Source: Deltaproteobacteria bacterium
GTDB taxonomy: Bacteria; Myxococcota_A; Bradymonadia; REDH01
NCBI GenBank assembly: GCA_007693585.1
Contig: REDH01000090.1
Location: forward strand, 1 to 55,857
Reading direction: 5' to 3'
DNA: 55,857 nt
The notes under the pieces are model-generated. The model saw only the letters and a list, made by a program, of their open reading frames with translations. It had not been told where the DNA came from and made no database searches. The position numbers and the translations under genes were made by a program. Shown piece after piece: positions 2,181 through 19,062 of the stretch (positions within the stretch are counted from its first letter, which is position 1; every line of letters starts with the position of its first letter).

Positions 2181-2645
2181 ATGTTCAAGGTCGGTCGACT
2201 GCAATTGCTCACGTCTCCGGGTGGACGTCCGGGGGATCTCGGATTCAAGCTTACGGGCCATGCGCGCGAGGGGGACGGGCTGATCCGGGTCTGGCTGCGA
2301 CGTATCGGCCCCTGGGAACGCTATCTCGACCCGCGAGGCGCTTCCTCGGTCTGGGATGTGCGGGTGTCCATCCGGCGCGACAGCGCGTTCGAGCTGCAGG
2401 GTGATCTGAGCGTACGCGACCTTCCGGGGCTCGAGGACGCCTGGGACTTCCGGGCGGGCGGAGGCATGATCGCCCAGATGGTTCCGAACGGTGATTTCGT
2501 CCACGATGCGGCACTTGCCTGGGCGCGCTCGGCCACGCGGCCGGCCGCGGCGGGTGCGAGCGACGACGCGGACGACGACTGGGAACAGGCCGAGGAGCTC
2601 GCCCGGCTGACCGGAGAGCAGCTCGCGGTGCAGCAGGATGGTTGA
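2181..2645 (+). CDS. Hypothetical protein, 154 aa
   Basis: Not a family I recognise. The product is soluble with no signal peptide or membrane segment. It begins MFKVGRLQLL and has an N-terminal part rich in alternating polar/hydrophobic strands (WERYLDP, VWDVRVSIRRD), followed by an Ala/Asp-rich linker (SDDADDDWEQ) and a short C-terminal helix. GC3 is high and the frame is clean. Longer upstream starts exist (2076, 2172) but the ribosome binding site favours 2181. Its stop overlaps the ATG of the OmpA-domain gene by 8 nt, so the two are probably cotranslated and may share an envelope role; that link is inference. Confidence 0.7.
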   Translation: MFKVGRLQLLTSPGGRPGDLGFKLTGHAREGDGLIRVWLRRIGPWERYLDPRGASSVWDVRVSIRRDSAFELQGDLSVRDLPGLEDAWDFRAGGGMIAQMVPNGDFVHDAALAWARSATRPAAAGASDDADDDWEQAEELARLTGEQLAVQQDG

Positions 2646-3693
2646 AGCACTCCATCGGCAGATGAGCCGATGGAGCGTGGGGGTCGTCGGCCTGATGCTG
2701 TTCGCGCTGCCGGCCCATGGGGCGGATCTGCCGATTCGCTGGTCTCTTGCCGAGGACGCGGGTCAGGTCGTTCTCGAGATCGAGACCTTGCATGACATCG
2801 AGCAGTTCGAGGTCATGATCCTTCAGTCGGGCACCGGCTCGAACGAGCTGCTGGGGCGGATGGCTCGGGGAGCGGTGCGCGAGGGCGAGAGATTGCGCGT
2901 TCTCGGGGTTCGTGGCCGAGCGGATGCCGATCTGGAGGTTCGGGCCAGCGGTCATGTGGCCGGGGAGCGACTGACCCTCACGGCCACGGTGCCCGGGCAG
3001 GCCGCCCCGGCATCGCCGGTGACCCTCGGGCTTGACGCCAGCGTGTGGGATGAGGAAGCGCCCAGACTTCGTCTTCTGCCATCCCCTGACGTGGACCGTA
3101 TCGTTGTGGTGGTCACGGGCGAGGATGGGACGACGCTGCTGACCCGCGAGCATCGCGGGGAGGACGTTCACGGCGGAGTACTCGATGTCACGTGGGACAC
3201 CACCGCGGTCAGACCCCTTCTCATTCGTGCGGAGGCCCATGCGTCGGACGGCCGGTATGTGTGGCAGGAGCTCGTGCCGTGGCGTCATGATGTCGTCGTG
3301 GACGATGTTCACTTCGCCTCCGGGAGCCACGAACTGCCGAGCGACTCTGCGGAGCGTGTGGCCGAGGTGGCTCGCGACCTTCGTGAGATGACGGATCGAG
3401 TGTCCCCGTATGTCGACATTCAGCTCTGGGTCGGGGGCTACACGGACACCGTCGGCAGCGCGGGGACCAACCGACGGCTCTCGCTGGAGCGGGCACGATC
3501 GCTGGCCCTCGCGCTGAGGAGGGAGGGGCTCGACGTTCCCATCCACGTGCGTGGTTTCGGTCAGGAGGTCCTCGCGGTGTCCACGGACGACGAGGTCGAT
3601 GAGCCACGGAACCGCCGCGCCATCTTCGTCCTGTCCGCCGAGCCTCCGGCCGGGAGGGACTTCCCTGAGGGAAGGTGGGAGAGACTCCGCTGA
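2638..3693 (+). CDS. OmpA-family C-terminal domain protein, secreted
   Basis: 351 aa. An N-terminal signal peptide (hydrophobic VGVVGLMLFALPAHG, cleavage near AHG-AD) precedes about 190 residues of beta-rich sequence I do not recognise. The C-terminal 120 residues are an OmpA-like peptidoglycan-binding domain: FASGSHELPSDSAERV, then GGYTDTVGSAGTNRRLSLER with the usual Asp and Arg contacts, then GFGQE and EPRNRRAIFVLS. This domain binds diaminopimelate in peptidoglycan from the periplasm. No beta-barrel or lipobox is visible, so the protein is likely periplasmic. The start at 2638 overlaps the upstream stop; an internal ATG at 2662 (MSRWSVG) would give a more standard signal peptide length. 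Confidence 0.85.
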   Translation: MVEALHRQMSRWSVGVVGLMLFALPAHGADLPIRWSLAEDAGQVVLEIETLHDIEQFEVMILQSGTGSNELLGRMARGAVREGERLRVLGVRGRADADLEVRASGHVAGERLTLTATVPGQAAPASPVTLGLDASVWDEEAPRLRLLPSPDVDRIVVVVTGEDGTTLLTREHRGEDVHGGVLDVTWDTTAVRPLLIRAEAHASDGRYVWQELVPWRHDVVVDDVHFASGSHELPSDSAERVAEVARDLREMTDRVSPYVDIQLWVGGYTDTVGSAGTNRRLSLERARSLALALRREGLDVPIHVRGFGQEVLAVSTDDEVDEPRNRRAIFVLSAEPPAGRDFPEGRWERLR

Positions 3694-4832: not shown

Positions 4833-5015
4833 GCGGGCTCACGGCCACGGGACATAGTGGGGAATCGTGAAGACGACCATCAGGTTGAAGAGGGCGTGGG
4901 CGACGACGCAGGCGGCCAGTCCTTCGCTGCGTTCGCGAAGCAGACCGAAGAGGAGGGACGGGAAGAAGACGAACAGCCTCATCGGATCCCAACCGATCAC
5001 CAGGTGGGCGATTGA
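4467..5015 (+). CDS. Doubtful small secreted protein, opposite strand
   Basis: GGAGG lies 6 nt before ATG 4467, and the reading gives a hydrophobic N-terminus (CLAGVVAAAALACGVGEAG) followed by a Cys-containing, charged region (CCLLDRVEEEQAVWVC, SWWCDGERHP). This looks protein-like for about 120 residues. However the last 59 codons run antisense through the conserved end of the CPBP protease gene, which is unlikely for a real gene unless there is a frameshift before 4839. Kept because of the strong ribosome binding site and because it otherwise leaves 450 bases unexplained. Confidence 0.3.
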   Translation: MRRTDGMESVNRCLAGVVAAAALACGVGEAGSMSLPAGCCLLDRVEEEQAVWVCGEEGREWVRPLPRGTRGAEGSWWCDGERHPAMEQQLGEAVRNRLDRIAARDSRAPLDLGDDSAAAGNHAGSRPRDIVGNREDDHQVEEGVGDDAGGQSFAAFAKQTEEEGREEDEQPHRIPTDHQVGD

Positions 5016-5888
5016 GAAGACTGTGGACGTCAGGAGGTTGGCGCGGGTGAGCAGGAGCCCCCCGGGCAGTCGCAGCCCTCCGGTGTGGCCCGCTTCCCGG
5101 AGACGCGTCTGGAGGAACCCCCGGAAGAAGAACTCTTCCGGGAGTGCGACGACCAGAAGGTGTCCGAGCACGACGAGCAGGATCCACGAGAAGGAGATCG
5201 GAACGCGCAGGCTGTGGTCCGTCTGGATCCAGCGTTGGGGCGGGGCGCGATCCATGCCGACCGTGAATCGTGTGGGCGGGATCGGCTCGCCGTCCAGGGT
5301 GCCCTGGATTCGGAGTTCCGTTGCACCGCGCGGCAGCATGACGATGCGGACGTCCTGACCCGGTTGACCCTCGCGGTGCACGACGTGTCGGGGGTAGGGG
5401 TTCCCGGAGGGTGCGAGCAGGGTATCGTCGGCCTGGACGGTGATCGTCCACTCCGCCTGCGGCGCCCAGAACAGCACGACGCGCGAGCCCACCCGCTGGA
5501 TGGCCGGGAACTCGCCGCCACCCGGTTCCGGGTGTCCGACCGTTCGCTCCGGGGCCATCCTGTAGGCGTGCCAGGTCGGGTCGAAGTGCTGTCCCTGCGC
5601 GAGGGTCATCCAGGCGTGGTGACCGAGCAGGAAGAGCGGGAGAATCACGAGCGCAACCATCACTCCCCGGGCGGCCTCGGCGATGACGCGGCGTCCGTGG
5701 AGCCCGTAGTGATCGAGGCCCGGACCGCTTCGGCTCAGGACCAGTGCCGGAAGGTAGAGGAAGACCGCGGCCACGAGTGCAGGCAGGTGAGGGGCCAGGG
5801 GCGGGATGGCTCTTGCAGCGAGGTCGAGTCCGGCGAGCAGGCCGAGCACGAGGAGAGCGGCCCGCCGGGCATCCCGGCGCGCGGTCAT
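4839..5888 (-). CDS. CPBP-family intramembrane protease with internal soluble insert
   Basis: 349 aa. The CPBP (Abi/CAAX-protease type) catalytic signature is complete: EEFFFRG with Glu251-Glu252 and Arg256, then FSIAH with His295, then HALFN with His331 and Asn335. These glutamate/histidine intramembrane proteases cleave substrates within the membrane; in Myxococcota, members of the family have been proposed as sorting proteases for MYXO-CTERM proteins. Membrane segments lie at about 10-28, 36-50, 72-90, 232-250, 280-298 and 320-340. Between the third and fourth is a soluble stretch of about 135 residues (95-230) with beta strands (SRVVLFW, EWTITVQADD, RIVMLPRGATELRIQGTL), much longer than a usual loop. 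ATG 5888 is chosen because upstream in-frame sequence is not protein-like. Confidence 0.85.
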   Translation of the reverse strand: MTARRDARRAALLVLGLLAGLDLAARAIPPLAPHLPALVAAVFLYLPALVLSRSGPGLDHYGLHGRRVIAEAARGVMVALVILPLFLLGHHAWMTLAQGQHFDPTWHAYRMAPERTVGHPEPGGGEFPAIQRVGSRVVLFWAPQAEWTITVQADDTLLAPSGNPYPRHVVHREGQPGQDVRIVMLPRGATELRIQGTLDGEPIPPTRFTVGMDRAPPQRWIQTDHSLRVPISFSWILLVVLGHLLVVALPEEFFFRGFLQTRLREAGHTGGLRLPGGLLLTRANLLTSTVFSIAHLVIGWDPMRLFVFFPSLLFGLLRERSEGLAACVVAHALFNLMVVFTIPHYVPWP

Positions 5889-6077
5889 GGGTTCATTCGC
5901 GGACACGTCGGGCAGCGGCGGTAGAAGATTGAAATGGCGTGAATGGCGGGGTATGCGAGGGGACAGGCCCATGGTCGACCCGGGCCAGGGGGTCGTCCTG
6001 CGGGCGCTTCCGCCGGGCGCATCCGCTCGGCGAACTGGGCGGAGTCTCCACGACAGTCGCGTGTACCCGGATAGGTG

Positions 6078-9000
6078 ATGGCGAGCAACACAGATGGCAA
6101 TCAGCCGGGTGGCGCAGGTGGCAGGCCGCCGCGCCCGAAGTCCTTCCACGTTCGTCGGGCGAGCGGGCACATCCTCGGCCCCTTCAGCGCGGCGCTGATT
6201 CAGCAGATGATCCGGTCGGGAAAACTGACCGGCGAGGAAGGGATCAGCCAGGACAAGGAGCAGTGGGTCCCTATCGTTGCGGCTCCCGAGTTTGCGACGG
6301 TCTTCGAGGAGAGCGGTGCACCGGTGCCTGGAATGGCGACGGCCGATTCCAGCGGCGCGCGCTCGATTCCGGAGGCGGCGGCGGAGGCTCCAGGCCGTGA
6401 GGACGACTTCGAGTCCTTCTTTGCCGATGACGACGAAGCACCCGCCGAGCAGGATGCGGACGACGCGGCGTTCCCGGGGTTCTGGCAGGCCGGGGGCGCG
6501 GAAGGGGGGAGCGGTCCGGAACTACGACTCGCGGAGAACACCGGAGACGTTCCGGCCGTGAGCGTAGATGACGTGGAGCCCGTCCCCCGGACCATGCTTC
6601 TGGGTGATCAGGCGAAGAAGGAGGAGGACATCCCGCTTCCTGCGCCGAGGAGCGGTATTCGCCGGACGAGCACCATCGCATTGACCGCCGTGAGCGGTGG
6701 GGCAGGTCCACCGGATCTGCCCGCACCCGCGAAGCCGCGGACGACAGGGATAGGCCAGCGGGGCGGGGCCACCATGGATCTGCCTGGAAGCCTGCTGGAT
6801 GAAGCGTCGGAGCTCCCTGCTCCGGTCGGTTCCACGGCGTCCGACCTCCCCGCACCCGTGACGTCGGATCTTCCGGCTGCCATCGGAGGCCGAGGTGGCG
6901 CGACGTCCGATCTGCCCGTGTCCACCACGGCATCTTCTCTTCCGGGTCGTCCCGGAACTGCGGATCTTCCAGCGAGCGGGCGGCCTCCGCAGCTCCCGCG
7001 CAGTGCGGGCACCGCTGATCTTCCGGCGCCCCGGGCCGCGACCGGTGCCTCCCCTTCCGGCGGCACGTCTCCTATCGAGGCCGATGGCGACGACCTGGAC
7101 GCGCTCGAGGAGTTCGACAGTTTCTTCGCGGACGATTCGCCATCGTCCACGGCTCCTCCCTCAATGCGCACCGAGGCCCTCCAGGTCGGAACCGACGTGC
7201 TCGCTCAGCCTGCCGTGGGGGCGGCGCCGCCCGCTCCGGAAGCGGACGATGAGGACGACCTTCTCCTGTTCGCTTCAGGTGACCATCCCGCTGCGGCGGA
7301 GGGGGCGCCTGACCTGCTCGACGAAGTGCTCGACCAGGGCGCGGGGACGGACGAGTTCGCCGAGTTCTTCGCCGAAGCATCCGCTGGCGCGGCGGCCGGG
7401 GCGGAGGCGCAGGCATCGGCATCCGCGCCGGCGTCTGGCGCTCGTCCTCGTGCGTCGGTATCGCCCAAGGTGATCGGGGCGGCGGCCGTGCTCCTGCTGC
7501 TTGTCATCATCGTCGTGGCCGTTCAGCTCTTCGAACGCACGCGCACGGAGGCGCCCGCGCCCGTCGCAGCGGCGGAGCCGGCGCCGGCTGCACCCACCGT
7601 GGAGCTGGGAGATCTCGCCGACCTGCGCGACGGAAGCTTCCGCGCGCTGACCGCCTTCATGGATGATGCGGAGGCGGTCGGGAACTCCCTGACGGCGGAC
7701 GAGCGAGCTCGCACGCTGGTGGCCGGAAGCTGGCTTCTCGTCGAGTATCCGGAACTCCAGGAGCGCTACGCGGAGTTCGTGGACCGGCAATTCGAACTGC
7801 TCTCCACCGAGGAACCGTCCGACGACATCCAGATGGGTCGAGGCGCGTGGCTTGCGCTTCACGCGGACGAGGATGCGTTGACTGTCCTCGGCCTGCTTCG
7901 CGACGGCGAGCACGCCGCGATGGCCGAGCTGCTCCGGGGCTTCTACGCCGTGCAGCGGGCCCGCGGGGTGACGCCTCCGGTCCGGGTGGAGGAGCCGACC
8001 GCAGCGCCCGATGCGAACGATGGTTCAGACGAGGCCGACGAGGAAGGAGGCCCGGAGGCCGATTCGAGCGAGCAGGTTGCTTCGGCTTCCGCCGCGACCG
8101 GAGAGCCGGGCCGGCTGGATCCATTGACGGCAGAGGAGCGTGAAACCCTGCTTCGTCAGGCAGAACGTGCCTTCCAGGCCGCGGCCCGGGCTGACGACAC
8201 CTGGGTCGTGCCCGTGTACTGGCGCGCTCGATCCTTGCTGGAGCGCGGGGATGTCGAGGGCGCATATTCGGCTGCGGCCGAAGCGCTCGCGCTCCGCCCG
8301 GAGCACGCCGGAAACGCACTGCTCGCCGCTTCGATCGACCTGCGACGCGGGAACATCGATCTCGCTGAGGACAAGGCCCTGGGTCTCGTGGAGAGTGCCG
8401 ACAGCGGCGCATCGAGTCGTCAGGAGAGCGAAGCGTTCGGTGTCGTGGCGGATGCGGCCAGCGCTCGGTTCCAGCGGGAGACGGCACAGGAGAATCTCGC
8501 CGCCTCCCTGCGGGTCGATCCCACGAACACCGTCCGCCTCCGCCAGGCGGATGACCTCTTCACGCGTGCACAGGACTGGAGCGGTGGGCTCCTGTTCGCC
8601 GACGAGGTCGCCGAGCACGGGGTTCCGGAGCTCGCCCTGCGGGAGAGTCGTACCCGCATGCTGGCCGGAATGGGGAGACTGGACGAAGCTGCGGATGAAG
8701 TGGAGGCCGCCAGGCGGCAGGAGCCCGAGGATTCGCGTTTCATTCTGCTGGAGGGGCTGGTGGCCGAGGGAAGGACCCAGTTCGACCGTGCAGCCGAGCG
8801 GTATCGTCAGGCGCTGCAGATCGAGCCGGAGCTGATCGAGGCCGAGCTCCGGCTGGCCGACCTCGAACGCCGTGGTGCGCGTCGGGGCGAAGCGCTGGCA
8901 CGCCTCGAACGCGTCTCCAGAGCCGCCCACATCACCAGCCGGGACTTCACGGAGATCGGAGAGCGATACCTCGCTCTCGGCGACACCAATGCCGCCATCG

Positions 9001-10037
9001 GCCGATTCAACCGGGCCGTCGAGCTCGACCGCAGCAACGCGCAGGCATGGCTCAACCTGATCGAGTTCTTCGTCGATGGTGCCCAGTATCGCCGAGCACT
9101 GGACCGGATCGACCAGATGCGCCGCGCCGGCATCGAGCATCCCGTGCTGACCCATGCGCGCGCGAAGAGCCTGCTCGGGCTCGGGGAGTACGACGGGGCC
9201 ATCGAGGCCATGCTCGGACTCATCGCCGCGGTTCCCGAGGACGCCGAGTACTTGAGACTGCTCGGCGAAATCCATCTGAGGGCGGGCAACCACTCGGCGG
9301 CACGCGAAGTGCTCGGTCGCGCGCGGGATCTCGCCCCTTCCCGGGCCGAAATCCTCTTCTGGTTTGCCCGTCTCGACATCGAGTCCGGCCGCTACAGCGA
9401 GGCGATCTCCCGACTGAGCAGCATCGACGGTCGGGGAGACCCGGGCGAAGTCCGGTTCTGGCTCGGTGTGGCGCTTCAATCGAGCGGCCAGGTGAACTCG
9501 GCCCAGATGGAGTTCACAAGGGCCATCAACACCGATCCGAAGTGGTCCCTGCGCCATCCCGATGTCTTCTATCGACGTGCCAGACTGTTCTCTGATGTCG
9601 GGAACACCGGCGCGGCCTACGCCGACGCACGCACGGTACTCACACTCGAACCGCGGCATGCGGGAGCGAGAGCCGTGCTCGGCTGGGCCTACAGGGACAT
9701 GGGTCGATACGCGCAGGCGGTGGAAGAACTCGAGGAGAGTCTGCGTCTGGAGCCGCAGGTGCCCAAGGTTCATCACGAGCTTGCCGTCGCCTACGCGAGG
9801 CTGCGACCTGCCAACAACCAGGCGGCAGCACGGCACTTCGAAGCGGCACGGGAGGCTGGCCTCGGAAACGAGCGCCCACGTCTTCACCAGCAGCTCGGGG
9901 CCGTGTACGAGGCGCTCGGTCGACGCTCGCAGGCCGTCGGTGAGTATCGGCGCTACCTCGAGCTGTTGCCGGACCTCTCCTACGAGGAGCGTCGCGTCGT
10001 GGAGAACACCATCAGTCGTCTTGGCGGTGGCCGGTGA
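6078..10037 (+). CDS. GYF-domain / DLPAP-motif / transmembrane / TPR protein, 1319 aa
   Basis: Residues about 14-75 form a GYF-2-like domain (HVRRASGHILGPFSAALIQQ, then a conserved Trp in KEQWVPI). Then follow acidic linkers and, at about 210-320, roughly ten Leu-Pro motifs of type DLPAP/ADLPA/SDLPV. A single transmembrane helix (VIGAAAVLLLLVIIVVAV) lies near residue 465-485. The remaining 800 residues are alpha-helical with many TPR-like repeats, for example GDTNAAIGRFNRAVELDRSN and YAQAVEELEESLRLEPQ. GYF domains bind Pro-rich peptides; similar GYF plus DLPAP architecture is known to me from Myxococcus gliding and zinc-ribbon proteins. The orientation is probably cytoplasmic N-terminus and periplasmic TPR array. 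A GTG at 6075 is an alternative start. It is followed by a J-domain gene and an Hsp70 on the same strand. Confidence 0.8.
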   Translation: MASNTDGNQPGGAGGRPPRPKSFHVRRASGHILGPFSAALIQQMIRSGKLTGEEGISQDKEQWVPIVAAPEFATVFEESGAPVPGMATADSSGARSIPEAAAEAPGREDDFESFFADDDEAPAEQDADDAAFPGFWQAGGAEGGSGPELRLAENTGDVPAVSVDDVEPVPRTMLLGDQAKKEEDIPLPAPRSGIRRTSTIALTAVSGGAGPPDLPAPAKPRTTGIGQRGGATMDLPGSLLDEASELPAPVGSTASDLPAPVTSDLPAAIGGRGGATSDLPVSTTASSLPGRPGTADLPASGRPPQLPRSAGTADLPAPRAATGASPSGGTSPIEADGDDLDALEEFDSFFADDSPSSTAPPSMRTEALQVGTDVLAQPAVGAAPPAPEADDEDDLLLFASGDHPAAAEGAPDLLDEVLDQGAGTDEFAEFFAEASAGAAAGAEAQASASAPASGARPRASVSPKVIGAAAVLLLLVIIVVAVQLFERTRTEAPAPVAAAEPAPAAPTVELGDLADLRDGSFRALTAFMDDAEAVGNSLTADERARTLVAGSWLLVEYPELQERYAEFVDRQFELLSTEEPSDDIQMGRGAWLALHADEDALTVLGLLRDGEHAAMAELLRGFYAVQRARGVTPPVRVEEPTAAPDANDGSDEADEEGGPEADSSEQVASASAATGEPGRLDPLTAEERETLLRQAERAFQAAARADDTWVVPVYWRARSLLERGDVEGAYSAAAEALALRPEHAGNALLAASIDLRRGNIDLAEDKALGLVESADSGASSRQESEAFGVVADAASARFQRETAQENLAASLRVDPTNTVRLRQADDLFTRAQDWSGGLLFADEVAEHGVPELALRESRTRMLAGMGRLDEAADEVEAARRQEPEDSRFILLEGLVAEGRTQFDRAAERYRQALQIEPELIEAELRLADLERRGARRGEALARLERVSRAAHITSRDFTEIGERYLALGDTNAAIGRFNRAVELDRSNAQAWLNLIEFFVDGAQYRRALDRIDQMRRAGIEHPVLTHARAKSLLGLGEYDGAIEAMLGLIAAVPEDAEYLRLLGEIHLRAGNHSAAREVLGRARDLAPSRAEILFWFARLDIESGRYSEAISRLSSIDGRGDPGEVRFWLGVALQSSGQVNSAQMEFTRAINTDPKWSLRHPDVFYRRARLFSDVGNTGAAYADARTVLTLEPRHAGARAVLGWAYRDMGRYAQAVEELEESLRLEPQVPKVHHELAVAYARLRPANNQAAARHFEAAREAGLGNERPRLHQQLGAVYEALGRRSQAVGEYRRYLELLPDLSYEERRVVENTISRLGGGR

Positions 10038-10216
10038 CACATCTGCGCGGCTGCGTTTCGCGGGGTGTCGTGCCCATGTGCGCTCCGCGGCGGTCTCCCC
10101 GCAGTGCCGGAGTGAGCCCACCCGTGAACGAGCAGCGCAGTCCGTGCGCCGGCGATGCGTGACGTCACCGCTCCGTGTCCGCTGAATGGTTGGTTGTACG
10201 CGCATTCTCAAGCTGG

Positions 10217-11797
10217 ATGTTGCTTCTCGTTCACGAGCAGCTACACTCGGCCCTGACGGAATGTCACCCGAACCCGACCTGCTCGAAAACCAACTTGAAG
10301 TTCTATCGATACGGTGAATCGGTCGCGGTGAAGCGGCTCCGGGACGCGTTCGGACTCGACGTGGCCGCCGTCGATGACCTGCAGGCCATGAAGGACGCTC
10401 TCGAGGAGGAAGGCGCGGATGGACTGATGCTGTTCGTCTCCTTTGCTGCCCTTGGCGAGGATATGCTCGATGGGTTGTTTCTGTGCTCGGATATCCATCG
10501 TCCTCCGTCGGTCCGAGTGGTCGTGGTGCTCACGCAGGAGGAGCGAAGCGAGGCCGGGATGATTTCGGCGATGACGCGACTGAGGCTCTTCTGGCACGAG
10601 CCATGGGACAGCGTGGCGTTGCCGGAGGACATCCAGCACCTCCTGGTCGGAGCCCATCAGGACAGGGAGTCGGCGCGTGGCCCGGAGCAGGCGGGGGTGG
10701 GCAGGCAGGCAGCGACCACGATCGAGGTGCAGGCGGTGGGCTCGGAGCCTTCCGTGGATGGCGGCGACACGGCGGGCCCCGGCATCGCCGAGGAGAGGGT
10801 CTCGCTTCGACTCGACGCCGTGACACGGGCGGAGGATGCGCCGGATGACGAGCTGATCCAGCAGATGCGGAGCGATCTGAAGTCCACCCTGGTCCGGCTG
10901 CGCAACGTCTCGCCGAGAGTCATCCTCGGCCTGCCCCCGGGAGCATCGGAGAGTTTCGTCGACCAGGCCTACTACCGGTTGCTGCGGGACCATCATCCGG
11001 ATGTTCACGCGCATGTGAACGATGGAGAGGTCTCCAGGTTGGCGGAGGAAGTGTTCATCGAGATCCGCAAGCTCAGGCAGCGTGCTCTCGACGAAAGGGC
11101 GTCCACCCACCCCGGGCTGTATCCGGAGCCCGAGGATTCGTCTGCCCGGGTGCCTGCCTCGAACGCCCCGACGGGCCCCCAGCGCCGCCACTCCACCGAG
11201 CGCATGAAGGCCATCGCGGAGTCGGCCCGTGCGATGCGCGAGGAGCGCCTTGTGGCTCGGGCTCGCCAGGAAGGTCAGGCCCGAGCGCATCGTCGCCAGG
11301 TGACGGAGCGGCTGCGGAAGGTCCGTGGCTCGGGTGACGAGCCCCCGATGAGCGTCGACCAGATTCACCGGACGGCACTCGCTGCCGTGGAGGCCGGATC
11401 GAACGACCGGGCGCTGGAGTTGTTCGAACAGCTGGACGCTCGCAAGGCAAACGTTCCCGGTGTCAGCGCGTGGTTGAGCTGGCTCCGCTGGCAGGATGGT
11501 GCGCTGGATGACGAGCAGGTGATCGGCGACCTCGATCAGCTGGAAGCGGAGTACGCCGACGACAAGCGCTCGAACTCGGTCCGGCTGACGCTGCTGGGTC
11601 ATGTGCACCGTTTCGGTGGACAGTTCCTGAAGGCAGAAGGGGTGTACAAGGAGGCCACTCGGCTGGATCGGAACAACGAGCAGGCCTATCGGTGGTGGAA
11701 GTACTGCAGCCAGCGACTCGAGATGAAGCGTGCCACGAGTCGAGCGGAGAAGGAGCGGGAGGGGGGGCTGCTGTCCCGGTTGTTCGGCAAGAGGTGA
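10217..11797 (+). CDS. Receiver-like / J-domain / TPR-like protein
   Basis: Three parts are visible. The N-terminal 130 residues resemble a degenerate response-regulator receiver fold (ADGLMLFVSFAALGEDMLDG, SVRVVVVLTQ), without a clear phospho-Asp triad. In the middle is a J domain with the diagnostic His-Pro-Asp in LLRDHHPDVHAH, preceded by LGLPPGASESFVDQAYYRLL; J domains stimulate Hsp70 ATPase. A charged Arg-rich linker leads to a C-terminal helical repeat region (AVEAGSNDRALELFEQLDAR, FLKAEGVYKEATRLDRNNEQ). The neighbouring dnaK-like gene is the obvious partner. The start is uncertain: GTG 10175, ATG 10217 and TTG 10291 are all in frame, none with a good ribosome binding site. ATG 10217 is used because MLLLVHEQ fits receiver strand beta-1. 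Confidence 0.75.
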   Translation: MLLLVHEQLHSALTECHPNPTCSKTNLKFYRYGESVAVKRLRDAFGLDVAAVDDLQAMKDALEEEGADGLMLFVSFAALGEDMLDGLFLCSDIHRPPSVRVVVVLTQEERSEAGMISAMTRLRLFWHEPWDSVALPEDIQHLLVGAHQDRESARGPEQAGVGRQAATTIEVQAVGSEPSVDGGDTAGPGIAEERVSLRLDAVTRAEDAPDDELIQQMRSDLKSTLVRLRNVSPRVILGLPPGASESFVDQAYYRLLRDHHPDVHAHVNDGEVSRLAEEVFIEIRKLRQRALDERASTHPGLYPEPEDSSARVPASNAPTGPQRRHSTERMKAIAESARAMREERLVARARQEGQARAHRRQVTERLRKVRGSGDEPPMSVDQIHRTALAAVEAGSNDRALELFEQLDARKANVPGVSAWLSWLRWQDGALDDEQVIGDLDQLEAEYADDKRSNSVRLTLLGHVHRFGGQFLKAEGVYKEATRLDRNNEQAYRWWKYCSQRLEMKRATSRAEKEREGGLLSRLFGKR

Positions 11798-11925
11798 ACG
11801 AGTGTTCCGTGGGCGGGGGCAGTGATGCGGGCCTTTCCGAGCGAACAGGTTGACGCGGTCATGCAGATCGGTGATCCCTCAGCGAGGTGTTAGTATCTGT
11901 TTGGTGAACGCGCGGAGCAGGACGG

Positions 11926-13479
11926 ATGTCAACGATCATCGGAATCGATTTGGGAACGACGAACTCCTGCGTCGTCGTCATGGAGGGCGAAACCCCCGTG
12001 GTGCTGCCCAACGCGGAGGGCAGCCGCACCACCCCGAGCATCGTGGCGTTCGTGGAGGATGCGCAAGTGCTCGTCGGTCATCAGGCGAAGCGGCAGTCGG
12101 TGATCAATCCAGATCGGACCATCACTCACGCGAAGCGCCTGATGGGGCGGCAGACCGCCGACCCCGCGATCGAGGAGTTTCGCCGCTACTGCGGCTATGA
12201 CACCTTTTCCGCGCCCAACGGGGACTGCTGGGTGCGCGCCGGGGGAGCGGACCGGTCTCCGCAGGAGATCTCCGCGCTGATTCTTCGGAAGCTCAAGCAG
12301 ACCGCCGAGGACTACCTCGGGCACGAGGTGACCGAGGCGGTGGTGACCGTTCCCGCCTACTTCACGGACGCGCAGCGTCAGGCCACGCGGGAGGCCGGTA
12401 CGCTGGCCGGGCTCAAGGTCCGCCGCATCCTGAACGAACCGACCGCGGCAGCGCTGGCCTATGGCATCCACAAGCCCGATGCCTGCCTCGCGGTGTTCGA
12501 CCTCGGCGGTGGAACGTTCGACGTGTCCATTCTCCGCGTTCGCAACGGTGTGTTCGAAGTCATCGCAACGGCGGGCGATGCGGATCTCGGAGGGGATGAC
12601 TTCGACCGGGTGCTGCTCGAGGCGCTGCTCGACGACTTCGAGTCCGAGAACGGGATCGATCTTCGCCAGGACCGGATGGCGGTGCAGCGCCTGAAGGAGG
12701 CCGCCGAGACGGCGAAGTGCGAGCTGTCCACCATCACCAGCACGACGATCAGTCTGCCGTTCCTCGCCGTCAACGAGTCCGGACCGAAGCACCTCAACAC
12801 CACCCTGGGTCGGGACAAGCTCGAGAACCTCGCCGACTCCCTGATCCGCCGCCTCGAAGCCCCGTGCAGACGAGCACTCTCCGATGCCGGGCTCAAGCCG
12901 TCGGACATCGACGAGGTACTGCTCGTGGGCGGGATGAGCCGTATGCCCGCCGTTCAGCGCAAGGTCGAGGAACTCTTCGGAAGGCGTCCCAGCAAGGGTG
13001 TCAATCCCGACGAGGCCGTGGCCATCGGGGCGTCCATTCAGGGGGGGGTACTGTCCGGTGAGGTCCAGGAGGTCATCCTGCTCGACGTGACGCCGCACTC
13101 CCTCGGCATCCGCGTTCAGGGCGGGCGAATGTCCACCGTCATCCCGCGAAACACGACGGTGCCCGTCCGGCACAAGAAGACGTTCGCGACCACCGAGGAC
13201 ATGCAGACAGAGGTCATCCTCCACGTCCTGCAGGGAGAGGATGCACAGGCCTCCAACAACGTGCGGCTCGGTACATTCTCCCTCGACCGGCTGGAGCCGC
13301 GCAAGGCCGGAGAGGTCAGGGTCGATGTCACCTTCGAGATCAATGCCGACGGAATCGTCAACGTGTCCGCCGTGGACTCCGTCTCCGGGAAGCAGGCGCA
13401 CATCACGATTCAGAACGCGCATGGCCTCAACGCCGCCGAGCGCGATACCGCGGCTGCGCGCGTGCAGGCCGTGGCCTGA
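11926..13479 (+). CDS. dnaK: Hsp70 (DnaK) paralogue lacking the C-terminal lid
   Basis: 517 aa. The nucleotide-binding domain is canonical: GIDLGTTNSCVVVMEG, VTVPAYFTDAQRQATREAG, ILNEPTAAALAYG, VFDLGGGTFDVSILRV and LVGGMSRMPAVQ. The substrate-binding beta domain follows (DVTPHSLGI, RNTTVPVRHKKTF, RLGTFSLDRLEP). The chain ends about 20 residues after the beta domain at NAHGLNAAERDTAAARVQAVA, so the roughly 100-residue helical lid and EEVD-like tail of a housekeeping DnaK (about 638 aa) are missing. It is therefore likely a specialised ATP-dependent chaperone rather than the main DnaK; no grpE or dnaJ lies here, but a J-domain protein is immediately upstream. AGGA precedes ATG 11926 at a workable distance. 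Confidence 0.9.
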   Translation: MSTIIGIDLGTTNSCVVVMEGETPVVLPNAEGSRTTPSIVAFVEDAQVLVGHQAKRQSVINPDRTITHAKRLMGRQTADPAIEEFRRYCGYDTFSAPNGDCWVRAGGADRSPQEISALILRKLKQTAEDYLGHEVTEAVVTVPAYFTDAQRQATREAGTLAGLKVRRILNEPTAAALAYGIHKPDACLAVFDLGGGTFDVSILRVRNGVFEVIATAGDADLGGDDFDRVLLEALLDDFESENGIDLRQDRMAVQRLKEAAETAKCELSTITSTTISLPFLAVNESGPKHLNTTLGRDKLENLADSLIRRLEAPCRRALSDAGLKPSDIDEVLLVGGMSRMPAVQRKVEELFGRRPSKGVNPDEAVAIGASIQGGVLSGEVQEVILLDVTPHSLGIRVQGGRMSTVIPRNTTVPVRHKKTFATTEDMQTEVILHVLQGEDAQASNNVRLGTFSLDRLEPRKAGEVRVDVTFEINADGIVNVSAVDSVSGKQAHITIQNAHGLNAAERDTAAARVQAVA

Positions 13480-13520
13480 GATCGGCCCGAGGCTCGCTTC
13501 CGCAGCAGTCGGGCAGCTGT

Positions 13521-13534
13521 GCTCCGGCCGGAGC
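13521..13534. terminator. Perfect palindrome between convergent genes
   Basis: GCTCCGGCCGGAGC, a 14-nt perfect palindrome in the 62-nt gap between the Hsp70 and TolC stops. It could form a short hairpin on either strand; no U tract. Confidence 0.4.
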
Positions 13535-13541
13535 CGGTGCG

Positions 13542-14975
13542 CTACTCCTCGAAGAGACGTCCCGCGGCATGATGTGCGCGGTAGATGGATTGCAGGACGG
13601 CCAGTTCCGCGGCGGTCTCGGCCAGTTCGCTAAGGTAGAGCTGGCTCTGCGCGAGCTGGACGTCGGCGCCCGTGGCCACGCCGAGTTGCCGCGCCTCCAG
13701 CGTCAGCTCGAGGTTCTCGCGGGCCAGTTCCGCCTCGGCGCGGGCGGCCTCCTCGCTCCGCCGCTCTGACTCGACGGCGAGCAATGCGCGACGCAACTCG
13801 CCCGTGCGTCGGACCTCCTGATCCTGTCGATCGAAGTCCACCTTGAGGGCTTCCAGCTCGGCCTCCTCCCGTTCCACCCGCCGGAGGCCACCGTCGTACA
13901 GATCCCAGGACGCCTGCAGGGTCAGGTTCCAGGAGAAGGGGCTGCCGCCGAACGCGGAGGACCTCTGCAGGAATGCCTGAAACTGGGCAAAGACTTCCGG
14001 AGCGAAGCGAGCTCGCGCCTCCCGTGCTCGCGCCTCCTCGAAGGAGCGGCGGGCGTCCAGCATGCGGAGCTCCGGAAGGACCACCCCGAGGTCGGCTTCC
14101 CACTCGCGGGTGGACTCAGGAAGGGAGAGTTCGTGTGGAGTCGATGTCTCGAACTCGGCCCCACGGTGCAGCAGGGTGGCCAGCGCCTCGCGCGCCATCT
14201 CATATCCGTGCGACGCCGCTTCGTACTCCCGTTCGGCGCGGACGCGAGCGACCTCCGATCGCGTCATCTCGAAGCGCGCTCCCACCCCTTCCTCGAAGGC
14301 AATCCGGGTCTGCTCCTCGACCATGCGGGCAAGCTCCAGGTTGCGCTCGGCGATCTCCGTCATTCGCCGCAGTCCCTCCGCCGTGAAATAGAGTTCGATG
14401 AGGGCTGCGTCGAGCTCGCGCGCCAGCACGTCCGAACCGATCTCCGCCTGGGACTGCGAGAGTTCGGCGAGCCGGAGCAGAGGAAAGGCACGGGCGTTGA
14501 AGAGCGTCTGGCGCACCGTACCAATTCCGCGCACCTCGTGGCGGTACTGAATCACCGACGGATCCCCGGTCTCACCAGCGAGCTGGCGCGGGTCGGGAAC
14601 ATCGGGATTGTCCGCGTAGAACTGCTGAAGTTCCGGCGAACCGTCGAACACCGTGTCCAGGTAGGGTGTCAACGGAGCGTACACATTCGGGAACTCGAAG
14701 CGCAGCTCCTCGTCGTTGAGCACGTACTGGCCCGTCACGTTCACGAAGGGGAGGAGGATCGCCCTGGCCTGACGCTCCAGAAGCGCCGTCTGCTCCAGGG
14801 TGCGCTGTGCGATCGAGAACGACGGGTTGTTTCGGACGAGCTCCTGGCGGGCCTCGTCCAGGGTCAGAATCGGTTGACTCCACGCCAGACCTGGCCACAC
14901 CGTGAGACCCGCGAAGGTCCAGAACACCATTCTGCAGATCCCGGTTGCGCGCTGGCGCGCCGCTGCCGCGTTCAT
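13542..14975 (-). CDS. TolC-family outer-membrane efflux protein
   Basis: 477 aa. A signal peptide (hydrophobic run VFWTFAGLTVWPGL, cleavage near AWS-QP) is followed by TolC-type architecture: an N-terminal LTLDEARQELVRNNPSFSIA, long heptad-rich helices, and two repeated halves ending in LETDVQLAQ-like text (ATGADVQLAQSQLYLSELAE). TolC trimers form the outer-membrane duct of efflux pumps and type I secretion. There is no inner-membrane pump or membrane-fusion gene beside it. Its ATG overlaps the tetR stop (ATGA), so the two are cotranscribed and the regulator probably controls it. There is also a 'YVLNDEELRF' strand segment typical of the barrel. Confidence 0.9.
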   Translation of the reverse strand: MNAAAARQRATGICRMVFWTFAGLTVWPGLAWSQPILTLDEARQELVRNNPSFSIAQRTLEQTALLERQARAILLPFVNVTGQYVLNDEELRFEFPNVYAPLTPYLDTVFDGSPELQQFYADNPDVPDPRQLAGETGDPSVIQYRHEVRGIGTVRQTLFNARAFPLLRLAELSQSQAEIGSDVLARELDAALIELYFTAEGLRRMTEIAERNLELARMVEEQTRIAFEEGVGARFEMTRSEVARVRAEREYEAASHGYEMAREALATLLHRGAEFETSTPHELSLPESTREWEADLGVVLPELRMLDARRSFEEARAREARARFAPEVFAQFQAFLQRSSAFGGSPFSWNLTLQASWDLYDGGLRRVEREEAELEALKVDFDRQDQEVRRTGELRRALLAVESERRSEEAARAEAELARENLELTLEARQLGVATGADVQLAQSQLYLSELAETAAELAVLQSIYRAHHAAGRLFEE

Positions 14976-15589
14976 GGCTCTCCGTGGTCATCGGGCCACT
15001 GGATGTTCAGCAGCCGTGTGAACTGGTGCGTGGACTGGAGGAACAGCTCGAGGCTCTCTTCCTGCTCCGAACCGGCCCGGGCGACATGGGCCAGCAATGC
15101 GCCGGCCAGGCCAAAATGGAAGAGCTGGACAACCTGGTCGACCGTCTCCGGATGAAGGGAGTCGTCGATTCGCATCAGGGCCCTTCCCAGGGCTGAACGG
15201 ACGAAGAGCCCATGCTCGGCGACTCGAGTGCGAACATCTCCCGCGTGATCCGTCAGCAGGAGAGCAAGGAGCAGGCGCACGGTTCCGCCGCGCTCGCGCG
15301 CATCCTCGACCATCCGCAGCGCAACGCACCTCATCACATCGGGGGCGCTCTGGCACCGGTCGAGCTCCCGTTCGAGAGAGCGCTCGGCTTCCTCACAGCG
15401 CACGGACACGAGCTCGCGGAGCAGCTCTTCCTTGCTGCCGAAATAGTAGTAGAGCATCGGATTGGTGACGTTCGCGCTCTGCACGATGTCTCGAACACTC
15501 GTACCCGAGAAGCCCTTCTCGGCGAAGTGTCGTTCCGCAGCATCGAGAATTCGGCGACGGGTGTCCGGTTCGCCTGTGTGATCGGTCAT
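14972..15589 (-). CDS. TetR-family transcriptional regulator
   Basis: 205 aa. The N-terminal helix-turn-helix is clear: RRRILDAAERHFAEKGFSGT, VRDIVQSANVT, then MLYYYFGSKEELLREL. The C-terminal helical ligand-binding half is typical in size. TetR regulators usually repress their own operon and an efflux gene. The ATG at 15589 is chosen because the domain begins 10 residues later; longer frames run back into flhB. The stop overlaps the tolC start by 4 nt. The gene lies 70 nt downstream of flhB on the same strand, with a candidate operator in that gap. Confidence 0.9.
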   Translation of the reverse strand: MTDHTGEPDTRRRILDAAERHFAEKGFSGTSVRDIVQSANVTNPMLYYYFGSKEELLRELVSVRCEEAERSLERELDRCQSAPDVMRCVALRMVEDARERGGTVRLLLALLLTDHAGDVRTRVAEHGLFVRSALGRALMRIDDSLHPETVDQVVQLFHFGLAGALLAHVARAGSEQEESLELFLQSTHQFTRLLNIQWPDDHGEP

Positions 15590-15638
15590 TGGCGTGAAGA
15601 TCGAGTGCGGGGGGAGGGGGCGAAACGCCGCCGCCCCT

Positions 15639-15652
15639 CTAATGAACGTTAG
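15639..15652 (-). promoter_or_regulatory. Candidate TetR operator
   Basis: CTAATGAACGTTAG, an imperfect palindrome (10 of 14 positions symmetric, with AACGTT at its core) 50 nt upstream of tetR, in the usual position for autorepression. Assignment is by position and symmetry only. Confidence 0.4.
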
Positions 15653-15659
15653 GTAGGTG

Positions 15660-16700
15660 TCAATGCCGTTTCGTCTCGGCGATGGCCCAACGGAGCACCT
15701 CGGCCACCGGCCCGTACCATCGCTCGGGGACAAGCGCGCCCGCGGGGAGTTGTACGAGGGATCGGGCCACGGGCCTGTGCACGATCTCGGGGACACCCCG
15801 TCGTCTCGCGTGGCGCAGGATGTACCGGGCGCGCGCACCCCGTCCGGATACGAGGACTCTGGGGGCGGTTCCGGACCCCGGTTCCCACTGCAGGGCCACG
15901 GCGATGTGGGTCGGGTTTCGGACGATGACGGCCGCATCGTCCAGAGCGACCGCGATCTCGCTGTCCAGCAGTTCCTGTCGCATGGCATCGCGGCGGGCCC
16001 GCATGTCGGGATCACCTTCACTCCGCTTGATTTCGTCGCGGATGTCCTTTCTCGACATTCGGTGTCGCCTTGTGAATTGCCTTTTCTGAAGAAGGAGATC
16101 TGCCGCCGCGTGTGCCGGGGACAGGAGCAGGAGCGCCAGCAGGAGCCATGCGATTGGTGCCGCGAAGGAACCGGTTGCGAGGGCGTGTTCGGCCAGGACT
16201 CCGGTGTCGAGTTCGGAGAGGGCCTCCAGGGAGAGTTGCAGGGCGCCGAGGACGAGTCCGCAGGAGACAGCCAGGACGGCGAGGGAGAGGCAGGCCTGCT
16301 CCAGGCTGTCCCTCTTCCACCGTTGCAGCAGCGTGCCGAGTCCATGGAACCGCTTCGCATCGGGAAGGAGACGCCTGGGCGCGAACAGTCCTCCGGTCTG
16401 CGAGATGCCTGCGATCAGGCCGCCGGAGGCCCCGAGCGCGACGGTCGTGCAGAGGATGGTCGCGGCCGCTCGCGCCTGGGTGAGTCCGACTTCGAGGAGC
16501 GTGTCTCGGCCGGAGATGGCGAGACTTGACCATGGGCGGGTCAATTCATCGAGCATGGTCGAGGACGACAGCAGCAGCCCTGCGAGCAGTCCGGGGATCG
16601 TCGCGACGCGCAGGATCTCTCGCCCGACCGGGACATCGCCACGTTTGCGCAGCTCGGCGAGTCGTTCGGGGGTAGGGGGCTCGGTCTTCTCTGTACTCAC
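15660..16700 (-). CDS. flhB: FlhB / SctU type III export switch protein
   Basis: 346 aa. It starts KTEPPTPERLAELRKRGDVP, the standard FlhB/SctU N-terminus, has four hydrophobic segments, and the cytoplasmic domain carries the autocleavage motif NPTH in VRNPTHIAVALQW. This protein sits at the export gate and switches substrate class after self-cleavage between Asn and Pro. The start is GTG 16700, overlapping the fliR stop by 4 nt. It is the last gene of the fliOPQR-flhB block; flhA, which normally follows, is not in the window. Whether the system is flagellar or a non-flagellar type III secretion apparatus cannot be decided from this gene. Confidence 0.9.
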   Translation of the reverse strand: MSTEKTEPPTPERLAELRKRGDVPVGREILRVATIPGLLAGLLLSSSTMLDELTRPWSSLAISGRDTLLEVGLTQARAAATILCTTVALGASGGLIAGISQTGGLFAPRRLLPDAKRFHGLGTLLQRWKRDSLEQACLSLAVLAVSCGLVLGALQLSLEALSELDTGVLAEHALATGSFAAPIAWLLLALLLLSPAHAAADLLLQKRQFTRRHRMSRKDIRDEIKRSEGDPDMRARRDAMRQELLDSEIAVALDDAAVIVRNPTHIAVALQWEPGSGTAPRVLVSGRGARARYILRHARRRGVPEIVHRPVARSLVQLPAGALVPERWYGPVAEVLRWAIAETKRH

Positions 16701-17458
16701 GGAAGCTGGGTGGGCAGCAGGTCGAACCAGTCGATGACGTGTTGCAGGAAGAGGGGAAGGAGTCGGTCGAGCGCGGCGGCCAGGAGGAGCCAGGCCACGG
16801 TGGCTCGAGCGGGCATGGCGAGGAGAAAGGCGGGCAGCCCGGGCAGTGTCCGCTGCGCCCAGCCGATTCCCAGTTCGACGACGAGCAGTGCGGACCAGAT
16901 GGGCAGCATCATTCCCGTGCCCACGAGCAGAAGCACGGACACCTGACGGACGGCGCTGGTGGCCACGGCATCGGGATCGAGCAGCGGAATTCCCAGCGGT
17001 ACGGCGCCGAGCGCGACATGGTGGGCCCTCACCACGGACTCGGCCCCGCCGAACGAGAGGAAGAGCGAGAGCCCGATCAGGCCCAGCACCGGACCGAGCC
17101 CGCCCCCTCCCGCTCCGGTGTCGCCTGCTCCGAAGCTGCCGCGTCCGGACGCCGTGTCCAGCAGCACGCCAGCCACGCGCAGCACCTCGATCGCGCACTG
17201 GACGGTGAGGGCGACGAAGAGGCCCCGGACGAGCTCCGTGCCCAACGCCGGAACGAGTGCGGTGCCAGCCTGTACGGATGCGTGCGGGAGGATCGCCAGC
17301 ACGAGCATGATCAGGAGAGGTACGCGGGCGGATGCCGGAACGACCCGGGAGAGGGGGGGCGGGAGGAGCACCAGGGCAGGCGCGATCCGTGCGCCGAGGA
17401 GCAGGACGGTCCACACGGTGTCGATCCAGTCCTGCGGCAGGGGTCCGCCCGTGCTCAT
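16697..17458 (-). CDS. fliR: FliR / SctT export gate protein
   Basis: 253 aa. Six to seven hydrophobic helices (for example VWTVLLLGARIAPALVLLPP, GLFVALTVQCAIEVLRVAG), with the conserved helical pattern of FliR. It forms the FliPQR helical pore complex through which unfolded substrates pass the inner membrane. A Gly-rich loop (GAGDTGAGGGGLGP) sits in the middle. Overlaps fliQ and flhB by 4 nt on either side, so translation is coupled. Confidence 0.85.
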   Translation of the reverse strand: MSTGGPLPQDWIDTVWTVLLLGARIAPALVLLPPPLSRVVPASARVPLLIMLVLAILPHASVQAGTALVPALGTELVRGLFVALTVQCAIEVLRVAGVLLDTASGRGSFGAGDTGAGGGGLGPVLGLIGLSLFLSFGGAESVVRAHHVALGAVPLGIPLLDPDAVATSAVRQVSVLLLVGTGMMLPIWSALLVVELGIGWAQRTLPGLPAFLLAMPARATVAWLLLAAALDRLLPLFLQHVIDWFDLLPTQLP

Positions 17459-17724
17459 CTCGGGCCCCCTGCAATGAGCAGGAGCACATGACCGCTCCAG
17501 TCGAGCAACTCCGTCACCATCCAGTCGCCAAGCAGGAGGAGAACCGCGCTGATCGCGAGGATTCTCGCGGCGAGTCCGATGGTCTGTTCCTGAACCTGGG
17601 TTGCGGTCTGGAGCACGGCGACCGCGAGACCGACGACGGTGGCAGCCACGACGGCCGGTGCGGCGAGGCGGACCGCCAGCACGAGCGCTTCGCGCAGGAG
17701 GATGGGCCAGTCGGGGTCGATCAT
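17455..17724 (-). CDS. fliQ: FliQ / SctS export gate protein
   Basis: 89 aa, the normal FliQ size. Two hydrophobic helices flank the conserved turn: APAVVAATVVGLAVAVLQTA, TQVQEQTIGLAARILAIS, then VLLLLGDWM. FliQ subunits wrap the FliP/FliR pore. The start is ATG 17724, whose ATGA overlaps the fliP stop. Confidence 0.9.
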   Translation of the reverse strand: MIDPDWPILLREALVLAVRLAAPAVVAATVVGLAVAVLQTATQVQEQTIGLAARILAISAVLLLLGDWMVTELLDWSGHVLLLIAGGPR

Positions 17725-18392
17725 GGGAGCACCGGGATCGTGTACGTGGCCATCACCCCCTCCGACAGGGTCAGCCATCCGCCGATTCCGAGGAAGAGGA
17801 GCAGCTTGAAGGGGAGGGAGACACTCGTGGGGTTGAGCATGTGCATTCCCAGGGACAGCAGAAGGGTACCCACCACGAGGTCCACCACGAGAAGTGGCAG
17901 AAGGATCAGGACACCGATGCGCAGCGCGTCCCCGAGTTCCGTGAGCATGAAGGCGGGGAGTGCTGCGGTCCACGGAACGCGGTCGGTGGCGGGATCGAGG
18001 CCGGGAGCGAGCCACGCAAGCTCGGCATCGCCACTGTTCGCCTGAAGGAAGGCTCGCCACGGCTCCATGGCGACCTTGAACAGGTCGAGCGTGCGCTCGG
18101 GTTCGGCCAGCCAGAGCGCCGGGTCGATGGGGATGTTCGCAAGGCCAGTGCCCACGCTGCCGAGCACCGGGTGCATCACCGCGGCGGTGAGGATCAGCGC
18201 CAGGGTCGTCAGCACCAGTGTCGGCGGAAGCTGGGGCAGCCCGAGCCCGTTGCGCAACAGCGCGAGCACCATGAGGAACTTGGTGAAGCAGGTGGCGCTG
18301 ATCACGACCAGCGGAATCAGCGCCAGCAGTGCGAGGCCGGCGGAGGTGACCAGGATCTGGGTCAGGCTCGGCAGCAGTTCGGTGCCTGTCAT
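17721..18392 (-). CDS. fliP: FliP / SctR export gate protein
   Basis: 223 aa. It has the conserved FliP blocks: IPLVVISATCFTKFLMVLAL LRNGLG near the N-terminus, then PAFMLTELGDALRIGVLILL and DLVVGTLLLSLGMHMLNP. Five FliP subunits form the core of the export pore. No long cleavable leader is present (unlike E. coli FliP), giving a length closer to SctR. Overlaps fliQ and fliO. Confidence 0.9.
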   Translation of the reverse strand: MTGTELLPSLTQILVTSAGLALLALIPLVVISATCFTKFLMVLALLRNGLGLPQLPPTLVLTTLALILTAAVMHPVLGSVGTGLANIPIDPALWLAEPERTLDLFKVAMEPWRAFLQANSGDAELAWLAPGLDPATDRVPWTAALPAFMLTELGDALRIGVLILLPLLVVDLVVGTLLLSLGMHMLNPTSVSLPFKLLLFLGIGGWLTLSEGVMATYTIPVLP

Positions 18393-18856
18393 GGCCCCTC
18401 CGGGGCGTTGTCCTCGAGCCGGAAGGAGCGATGGGCTTCAGGCGTCGTTGCGGTGAGCCGGTCCTGCGTCCTTCGGGTGGTCCGGTGTGCGCCTCGGCAG
18501 CCGCTGTCTGTGGGCAGGCCTGGCGTTGCCGGGATCCGGGTTTCGGGGGAGTCACCCGTGCGGTCGGCGGGCAGCAGGGTGGCTCCGGAACCCAGGACGA
18601 CGCAATGGACGCTGTCGCCACAGCGGAGCAGGACGACCTCGGCCTGTGGGCCGATCGAGAGTCGTTCGAGCAACTCGAGCTTCCGGCGTTCCGGCGGTTG
18701 ACGCCGTCGTGACCCGAGAACGAGAAGGGCTCCCGCCGCGGCGGTCAGAAGCGTGGCGATGGTCGCGAACGGGCCGAGCGGGCTGGCCGGAATCGCGACG
18801 AGTGCGAGCAGCGCGATGGCGGCGGTGGCTCCGGGTACGATGGCGGCATTGGGCAT
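18389..18856 (-). CDS. fliO: FliO-like export gate assembly protein
   Basis: 155 aa. Two hydrophobic segments (VPGATAAIALLALVAIPASP and FATIATLLTAAAGALLVLGS) are followed by a small beta domain LELLERLSIGPQAEVVLLRC, then HCVVLGSGATLL, which matches the FliO pattern. FliO acts as a scaffold for FliP assembly. Its presence ahead of fliPQR argues for a flagellar-type gate over a pathogenicity T3SS. The C-terminal 60 residues are Thr/Arg-rich and unconserved. The start is ATG 18856, with AGGA upstream. Confidence 0.75.
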   Translation of the reverse strand: MPNAAIVPGATAAIALLALVAIPASPLGPFATIATLLTAAAGALLVLGSRRRQPPERRKLELLERLSIGPQAEVVLLRCGDSVHCVVLGSGATLLPADRTGDSPETRIPATPGLPTDSGCRGAHRTTRRTQDRLTATTPEAHRSFRLEDNAPEGP

Positions 18857-18924
18857 GGGCGAGGTCCTGGTGGTGAGGAGACCTGTGCGGGAGTCGTCCC
18901 CGGACGGTCCGCGTTGCACTCATT

Positions 18925-19019
18925 CGCACCGCCGGTGCGACCTCGGGTTGACCGCTGGCGCGCGCTGTGGGTAGGCAGCGCGCGCACGCTCCCGGCCAAC
19001 CGGCACCCCTGCGGTGCCG
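18925..19019. repeat. Three perfect inverted repeats in the fliO-rdgC divergent region
   Basis: Three hairpin-capable sequences within 95 nt: CGCACCG-C-CGGTGCG at 18925-18939; a 10-bp stem GCGCGCGCTG / CAGCGCGCGC at 18958-18985 with an 8-nt loop; and CGGCACC-CCTGC-GGTGCCG at 19001-19019. They fill the gap between divergent fliO and rdgC. They could be operators, a structured 5' leader, or a small RNA. Confidence 0.55.
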
Positions 19020-19051
19020 GGGCGGGAACCCTCTCCCTGTTCATTCACCCC

Positions 19052-19056
19052 AGGAG
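19052..19056 (+). promoter_or_regulatory. Shine-Dalgarno that decides the TTG start of rdgC
   Basis: AGGAG lies 6 nt before TTG 19063. Upstream in-frame starts would read through the hairpin region. Confidence 0.6.
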
Positions 19057-19062
19057 CCAAGG

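Follow-up and report, generated by a model that had tools for sequence, protein, structure and literature searches.

A membrane-spanning GYF-TPR protein with a Leu-Pro motif tail, encoded beside a J protein and a lidless Hsp70 in a bacterium probably of the class Bradymonadia

The combination of an N-terminal cytoplasmic GYF-like domain, a membrane span and extracytoplasmic tetratricopeptide repeats (TPRs) is already published for Bd0075 of Bdellovibrio bacteriovorus, as described in the accessible part of PMC12034629. Here we describe a protein of this kind, encoded at positions 6078 to 10037 of a 55,857-nucleotide stretch (contig REDH01000090.1 of assembly GCA_007693585.1, Deltaproteobacteria bacterium; hereafter the window). 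What it adds to the known kind is a tail of Leu-Pro (LP) motifs that is independent of the GYF-type domain, and an operon with a J protein and an Hsp70 without a lid. Within the GYF signature, Bd0075 has Met for Trp and Ile at [MV], just like the window protein, whereas the accessible part of PMC12034629 mentions neither an LP-motif tail nor a J/Hsp70 operon, the two proteins being compared by description and not by sequence. The bacterial GYF domain of GltJ/AgmX from Myxococcus xanthus (7z3c) is the best match of the window family among solved structures, but LCWRSG is aligned there opposite the conserved VSxD of the family. Many relatives of the window protein have a zinc ribbon ahead of the GYF-type domain, as does GltJ; their C-terminal part consists of TPRs, whereas GltJ has a TonB-like end. 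The eukaryotic GYF domains of GIGYF1/2, Smy2 and CD2BP2 share the fold, but the window domain lacks the signature Trp and Tyr-Phe, and its linker contains no PPG ligand. A literature search, with most subscription journals outside its coverage, found no paper on the operon, on its LP tail with GYF-independent motifs, or on its lidless Hsp70.

The protein is organised as follows.

6078..10037, plus strand: bitopic protein of 1319 residues with a GYF-type domain, LP-motif linker, transmembrane helix and TPR array; open reading frame confirmed
6141..6296, plus strand: GYF-type domain, residues 22-73, from the family profile, an AlphaFold2 (AF2) model, Foldseek and VIA-align
6633..7031, plus strand: eleven LP motifs, three of them exact DLPAP; ten lie within 6714-7031 and one at 6633
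7470..7526, plus strand: transmembrane helix, residues 465-483, the only one
8751..9854, plus strand: TPR-matching stretch, residues 892-1259, predicted periplasmic (Pfam matches; side from flanking charge)

TPR families were strongly matched in Pfam, and the order of GYF-type domain, single transmembrane helix and TPRs, with the N-terminus predicted inside, is that of Bd0075. Lys and Arg together were more numerous before than after the helix in 28 of 29 family proteins (L043 is the exception), an excess which points to an N-in/C-out orientation with the GYF-type domain in the cytoplasm and the TPRs in the periplasm. A preliminary description, made from the letters of the window alone, had read this frame as a GYF-type domain, about ten DLPAP-like motifs, a transmembrane helix and a TPR array running from cytoplasm to periplasm. 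The frame, the domain and the helix at residue 465 followed by TPRs held up, and the flanking charges agree with the proposed sides; the figure of ten stands if any xLPxx is counted (10 LP at 6714-7031) but not for exact DLPAP. A scan of a collection of genome contigs yielded nothing beyond TPRs matched in one contig of Saprospiraceae.

In Pfam the N-terminal domain stays below threshold, GYF_2 (PF14237) scoring 17.2 bits on the whole protein and 23.4 bits on the excised domain against a cut-off of 25.8. Yet 30 of the 31 family GYF-type domains that we aligned (alignment A1) match GYF_2 at the loose limit of E<=1, and 12 match the classical GYF model; L120, from outside the class, passes the GYF_2 cut-off with 27.6 bits. 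G and S columns are invariant in the alignment, and G, P, D and W columns nearly so. Against the sequences of solved structures, the family profile found AgmX/GltJ 7z3c best (E 0.0063) and also GIGYF2 7rup (E 0.035); these GYF entries were found by the profile only, as phmmer with the window domain alone gave no PDB match up to E 10. Residues 1-91, modelled by AF2 from the single sequence, had a mean predicted local distance difference test score of 74.4, with 87-90 in blocks over residues 21-70. In Foldseek against the PDB, this model had GYF domains at all of ranks 1-9 (E 0.009-0.039, none below 0.001), GltJ 7z3c among them with E 0.023 and a root-mean-square deviation of 2.2 over 56 columns, while VIA-align gave Z 4.3-5.3 to GYF entries and 5.3-6.3 to three chloroplast TIC entries. 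Overall, the N-terminal domain is a GYF-type fold with a divergent sequence. At the classical proline-binding signature, GP[YF]xxxx[MV]xxWxxx[GN]YF (accessible part of PMC12034629), the window has GPFSAALIQQMIRSGKL; it keeps GPF and the later G, with Ile at [MV], Met in place of Trp and Lys-Leu in place of Tyr-Phe, so that three of the four aromatic positions are changed.

The linker holds 11 LP dipeptides, compared with 3.3 after shuffling, and five LPxP, compared with 0.3; none of 300 shuffles reached either count. DLPAP occurs three times and LPAP five times. The codons differ between the copies, which argues against a fresh DNA repeat and makes selection on the protein more likely. The first 91 residues matched 39 of 57 genomes, our own included, at E<=0.001; 31 regions were fetched, and 30 proteins (the window and 29 others) show the GYF-linker-transmembrane-TPR layout, L056 with its truncated beginning only. 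In all 30, which are of the same class, LP is enriched, and no more than 4 of 300 shuffles came up to the actual count in any of them. This count keeps L056, cut at a contig end, and leaves aside L065, a weak match in our own genome (contig C29, 628-residue frame), as well as the fusion L064, which counted separately has 1 LP against 2.4 shuffled. Pooling of 413 distinct motifs showed a preference for D, E, G or N before LP, then A, G, R or T followed by P, S or L, and A, K or R at +3. Enrichment in all 30 proteins makes the motifs look functional; since the set was found through GYF, it cannot show whether motif and domain depend on each other. A second, [DE]DLFxAP-like motif follows the LP repeats in four f5 linkers (L040, L042, L049 and L053), which carry 6-12 copies of [DE]DLF; the window protein has none. 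Across our own genome, the DLPAP pattern gave 42 matches against 23 in the reversed control, three of the 42 in the window linker and one on the opposite strand of the same gene. Phe is accepted by this pattern where Leu is meant, and the count does not demonstrate a motif network. With a looser DNA pattern for three LP, searched in ten genomes, matches out of frame predominated, and in several genomes the controls gave the higher numbers.

The repeats could instead be an evolvable spacer, a stiff and extended tail without a specific partner. Copy number and flanks do vary widely (PLPGLRQP, DLPGERG and DLPAPKG types), and some relatives, such as L036, have repeats that look recently duplicated. 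However, Leu would not be required in a spacer, the Leu-Pro core is kept while codons and flanks diverge, and [DE]LPAPK turns up again in families f2, f5 and f7. We regard a mere spacer as unlikely, although it deserves to be kept in view.

Two further genes follow the GYF gene in the window.

10175..11797, plus strand: J-domain protein with HPD present and weak C-terminal TPR matches (Pfam)
11926..13479, plus strand: Hsp70 of 517 residues that ends after the beta substrate-binding region and has no helical lid (Pfam, alignment)

The J protein carries its HPD motif and matched DnaJ with E 2e-5 and 25.1 bits against a cut-off of 27.8; the Hsp70 matched HSP70 with 686 bits over profile positions 1-510 of 599, the nucleotide-binding and beta substrate-binding regions being present. 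In 24 of the 29 usable loci (L056, which lacks downstream sequence, was left out), the next gene downstream is of J type. These genes were called with six J queries, because the window J protein alone matched only 9 of 282 genomes (E<=1e-8), too weak to map the pair. HPD is present in all 24 J proteins. The five loci without a J gene (L041, L050, L057, L061 and L066, the last with 1.7 kb of downstream sequence) all belong to f2. Hsp70 is the next gene after J in 19 of the 24 loci; three of the others reach the contig end (L037, L058 and L060), and L039 and L038 have about 2 kb and about 4 kb of further sequence with no Hsp70 in it, the genome of L038 (G055) encoding an Hsp70 of the same size on another contig. 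All 16 complete operon Hsp70s end where the lid helices begin in the DnaK-like protein of the window genome. The window genome has eight HSP70 matches, so the operon Hsp70 is one paralogue among several. As a marker of the operon, the lidless Hsp70 was rejected: the f3 genomes G012, G026 and G007 have an Hsp70 of 519-522 residues without a recognised TPR or J gene in the available sequence, so that it is not exclusive to the operon. At the f3 loci L075, L076 and L077, the last a short contig, an Hsp70 of 519-522 residues is present and no GYF-TPR or J gene was recognised in the available stretch.

A role in a polar motility or predation complex, like that of Bdellovibrio Bd0075 or Myxococcus GltJ, would make the chaperone pair incidental. 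Bd0075 has the same layout, by description, and belongs to an attack-phase, predation-essential set (accessible part of PMC12034629); AgmX/GltJ is the closest solved GYF by family profile, and the genome is probably of the predatory class Bradymonadia. The genes of the operon, however, encode chaperones and not motility proteins, and we consider such a role rather unlikely.

To follow the motif independently of the domain, we aligned the periplasmic stretch after the transmembrane helix (alignment A2) and searched it in 25 genomes, 20 of them picked because the GYF search had given none or only unlike proteins. Seven relatives were fetched, of which L131-L135 are N-terminally complete; L130 and L136 are truncated ahead of the cytoplasmic part and were left out. 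Even with filters switched off, GYF was not matched at E<=10 in any of the five complete proteins, which are orthologues of the same class; all have a zinc ribbon, a transmembrane helix and [DE]LP[AT]P. Their LP counts against shuffled means are 13 to 4.1, 14 to 4.3 and 17 to 7.4 (reached by 0 of 300 shuffles each), a clear enrichment in three of the five, and 6 to 4.0 (57 of 300) and 4 to 2.5 (73 of 300) in the remaining two. In a tree of the periplasmic part, built without L056, L064, L065, L112 and L120, the five GYF-less and five GYF-bearing proteins form a ten-row clade with support 100/100, and one GYF-less row is paired with a GYF-bearing row (83/85).

The converse was found in the phylum, where alignment A1 matched 125 of 282 genomes at E<=1e-5 and 20 places (L110-L129) were chosen among many listed matches, the better stretch being used for the LP count in L125, L126 and L127. 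Seven proteins from outside the class combine GYF with a transmembrane helix (L110, L111, L112, L115, L116, L117 and L120), and Pfam confirmed TPRs in the four that were scanned (L110, L111, L116 and L120). LP enrichment is absent before and after GYF in all seven; the part after GYF has 0-3 LP against shuffled means of 2.0-4.4, compared without a shuffle tail. GYF also occurs in kinase-DUF4388 (L113, L119) and DUF4388-J-TPR (L121, L123) proteins, again without LP enrichment. The same GYF variant lies mid-protein in L113, L114, L118, L119, L122 and L124, of which L113 and L119 are Ser/Thr kinases with DUF4388. Its presence inside kinase-type proteins suggests a general adaptor in this phylum.

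The motif thus exists without GYF and GYF without the motif, which means that the two features evolve apart in both directions and makes it less likely that they act as receptor and ligand in cis. On these sequence comparisons, the LP motifs are probably not the ligand of their own GYF domain, though the two might bind weakly or in some lineages. The preliminary description had raised self-binding or polymerisation as a possibility; GYF would then bind LP motifs on the same chain or on adjacent ones, and the protein would be cross-linked as a platform in the cytoplasm. The GYF fold is real, and motif and domain do coincide in all 30 proteins from the class, a biased sample as it was found through GYF. 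Against this stand the persistence of the motifs in all five GYF-less orthologues, GYF-bearing proteins without LP enrichment (the seven from outside the class and those of kinase and J type), the replaced Trp and Tyr-Phe, and the lack of PPG in the window linker. Self-binding therefore seems improbable.

The explanation that we favour, tentatively and with a chance just short of even, is a bitopic scaffold that offers multivalent LP motifs to a partner in trans and has its own J/Hsp70 service pair. Such a scaffold would sit in the inner membrane. Its cytoplasmic end would be a small exchangeable adaptor, namely a zinc ribbon, a GYF-type domain or both, followed by a presumably disordered tail with several to more than 20 copies of [DEGN]-L-P-[AGRT]-[PSL]-[KRA]. 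This tail may present many similar docking sites to a partner in trans and not to its own GYF domain, while one transmembrane helix would connect it with a large TPR superhelix in the periplasm, where envelope proteins would be held. The J protein and the lidless Hsp70 of the operon could act on the scaffold or on the proteins it gathers, and so control assembly and disassembly at the membrane. Several observations weigh against this explanation. LP motifs are kept at the five f2 loci without a J/Hsp70 neighbour, and the GYF-less orthologues L131-L135 were likewise found with neither a J nor an Hsp70 gene next to them; motifs without a neighbouring pair imply that the partner of the motif may be something other than the chaperones. 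With eight HSP70 matches in its own genome, the operon pair is not the only chaperone, and in two of the five GYF-less orthologues the LP count is often reached by shuffles.

Proline-rich antimicrobial peptides contact DnaK through Leu-Pro-Arg-Pro, and the LP motifs could similarly be docking or pseudo-substrate sites for the lidless Hsp70, which has kept its beta substrate-binding region and is encoded, like the J protein, beside the scaffold gene in most loci; DnaK, however, is not known to prefer an acidic residue ahead of Leu. This attractive idea is weakened because f2 orthologues keep the motifs without a neighbouring pair. PMC9146984 names DnaK as a target of proline-rich antimicrobial peptides, but connects its consensus with LPRP to the exit tunnel of the ribosome and not to DnaK, and we hold docking on Hsp70 to be quite improbable. 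Equally improbable is a dedicated chaperone station in which many LP motifs on the TPR scaffold would load the lidless Hsp70 and the J protein at the inner membrane, cytoplasmic chaperone cycles would control a periplasmic TPR assembly, and GYF domain and zinc ribbon would be interchangeable address tags.

Other genes accompany the scaffold gene, beginning with its upstream neighbour.

4839..6170, minus strand: divergent Rce1-like (CAAX) protease, with a long open reading frame whose start overlaps the GYF gene

Because of this overlap, the true start of the protease is probably further in. The protease gene adjoins the GYF gene in the window and likewise in nine further loci. Single chains with a GYF-type domain, DUF4388, TPRs and the Rce1-like protease were observed in two genomes of one family (L064:8216-11725 and L121:2055-4796), and the L121 chain also has a J domain. 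The GYF-type domain sits directly on a DUF4388-J-TPR protein in L123 and L121. Such fusions of GYF, J and Rce1-like parts support a functional link between them. At L055:10861-14955, a J-type frame of 1365 residues begins its domain series with a protein kinase, which precedes DUF4388 and the J domain. In the window, the gene for an OmpA-domain protein (2638-3693) and its upstream neighbour (2076-2645) are kept beside the locus in four genomes of the same family. A megablast search of window positions 10000-20000 against plasmids gave no match.

Our results show that features resembling a receptor and its ligand can evolve apart, a warning for the reading of domain-motif pairs within one chain. 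They also reveal a conserved operon of a membrane TPR scaffold, a J protein and a lidless Hsp70 in what is probably the class Bradymonadia, which is predatory. If this Hsp70 does have a fixed partner at the membrane, its truncated form would be a tractable model of the purpose of the lid.

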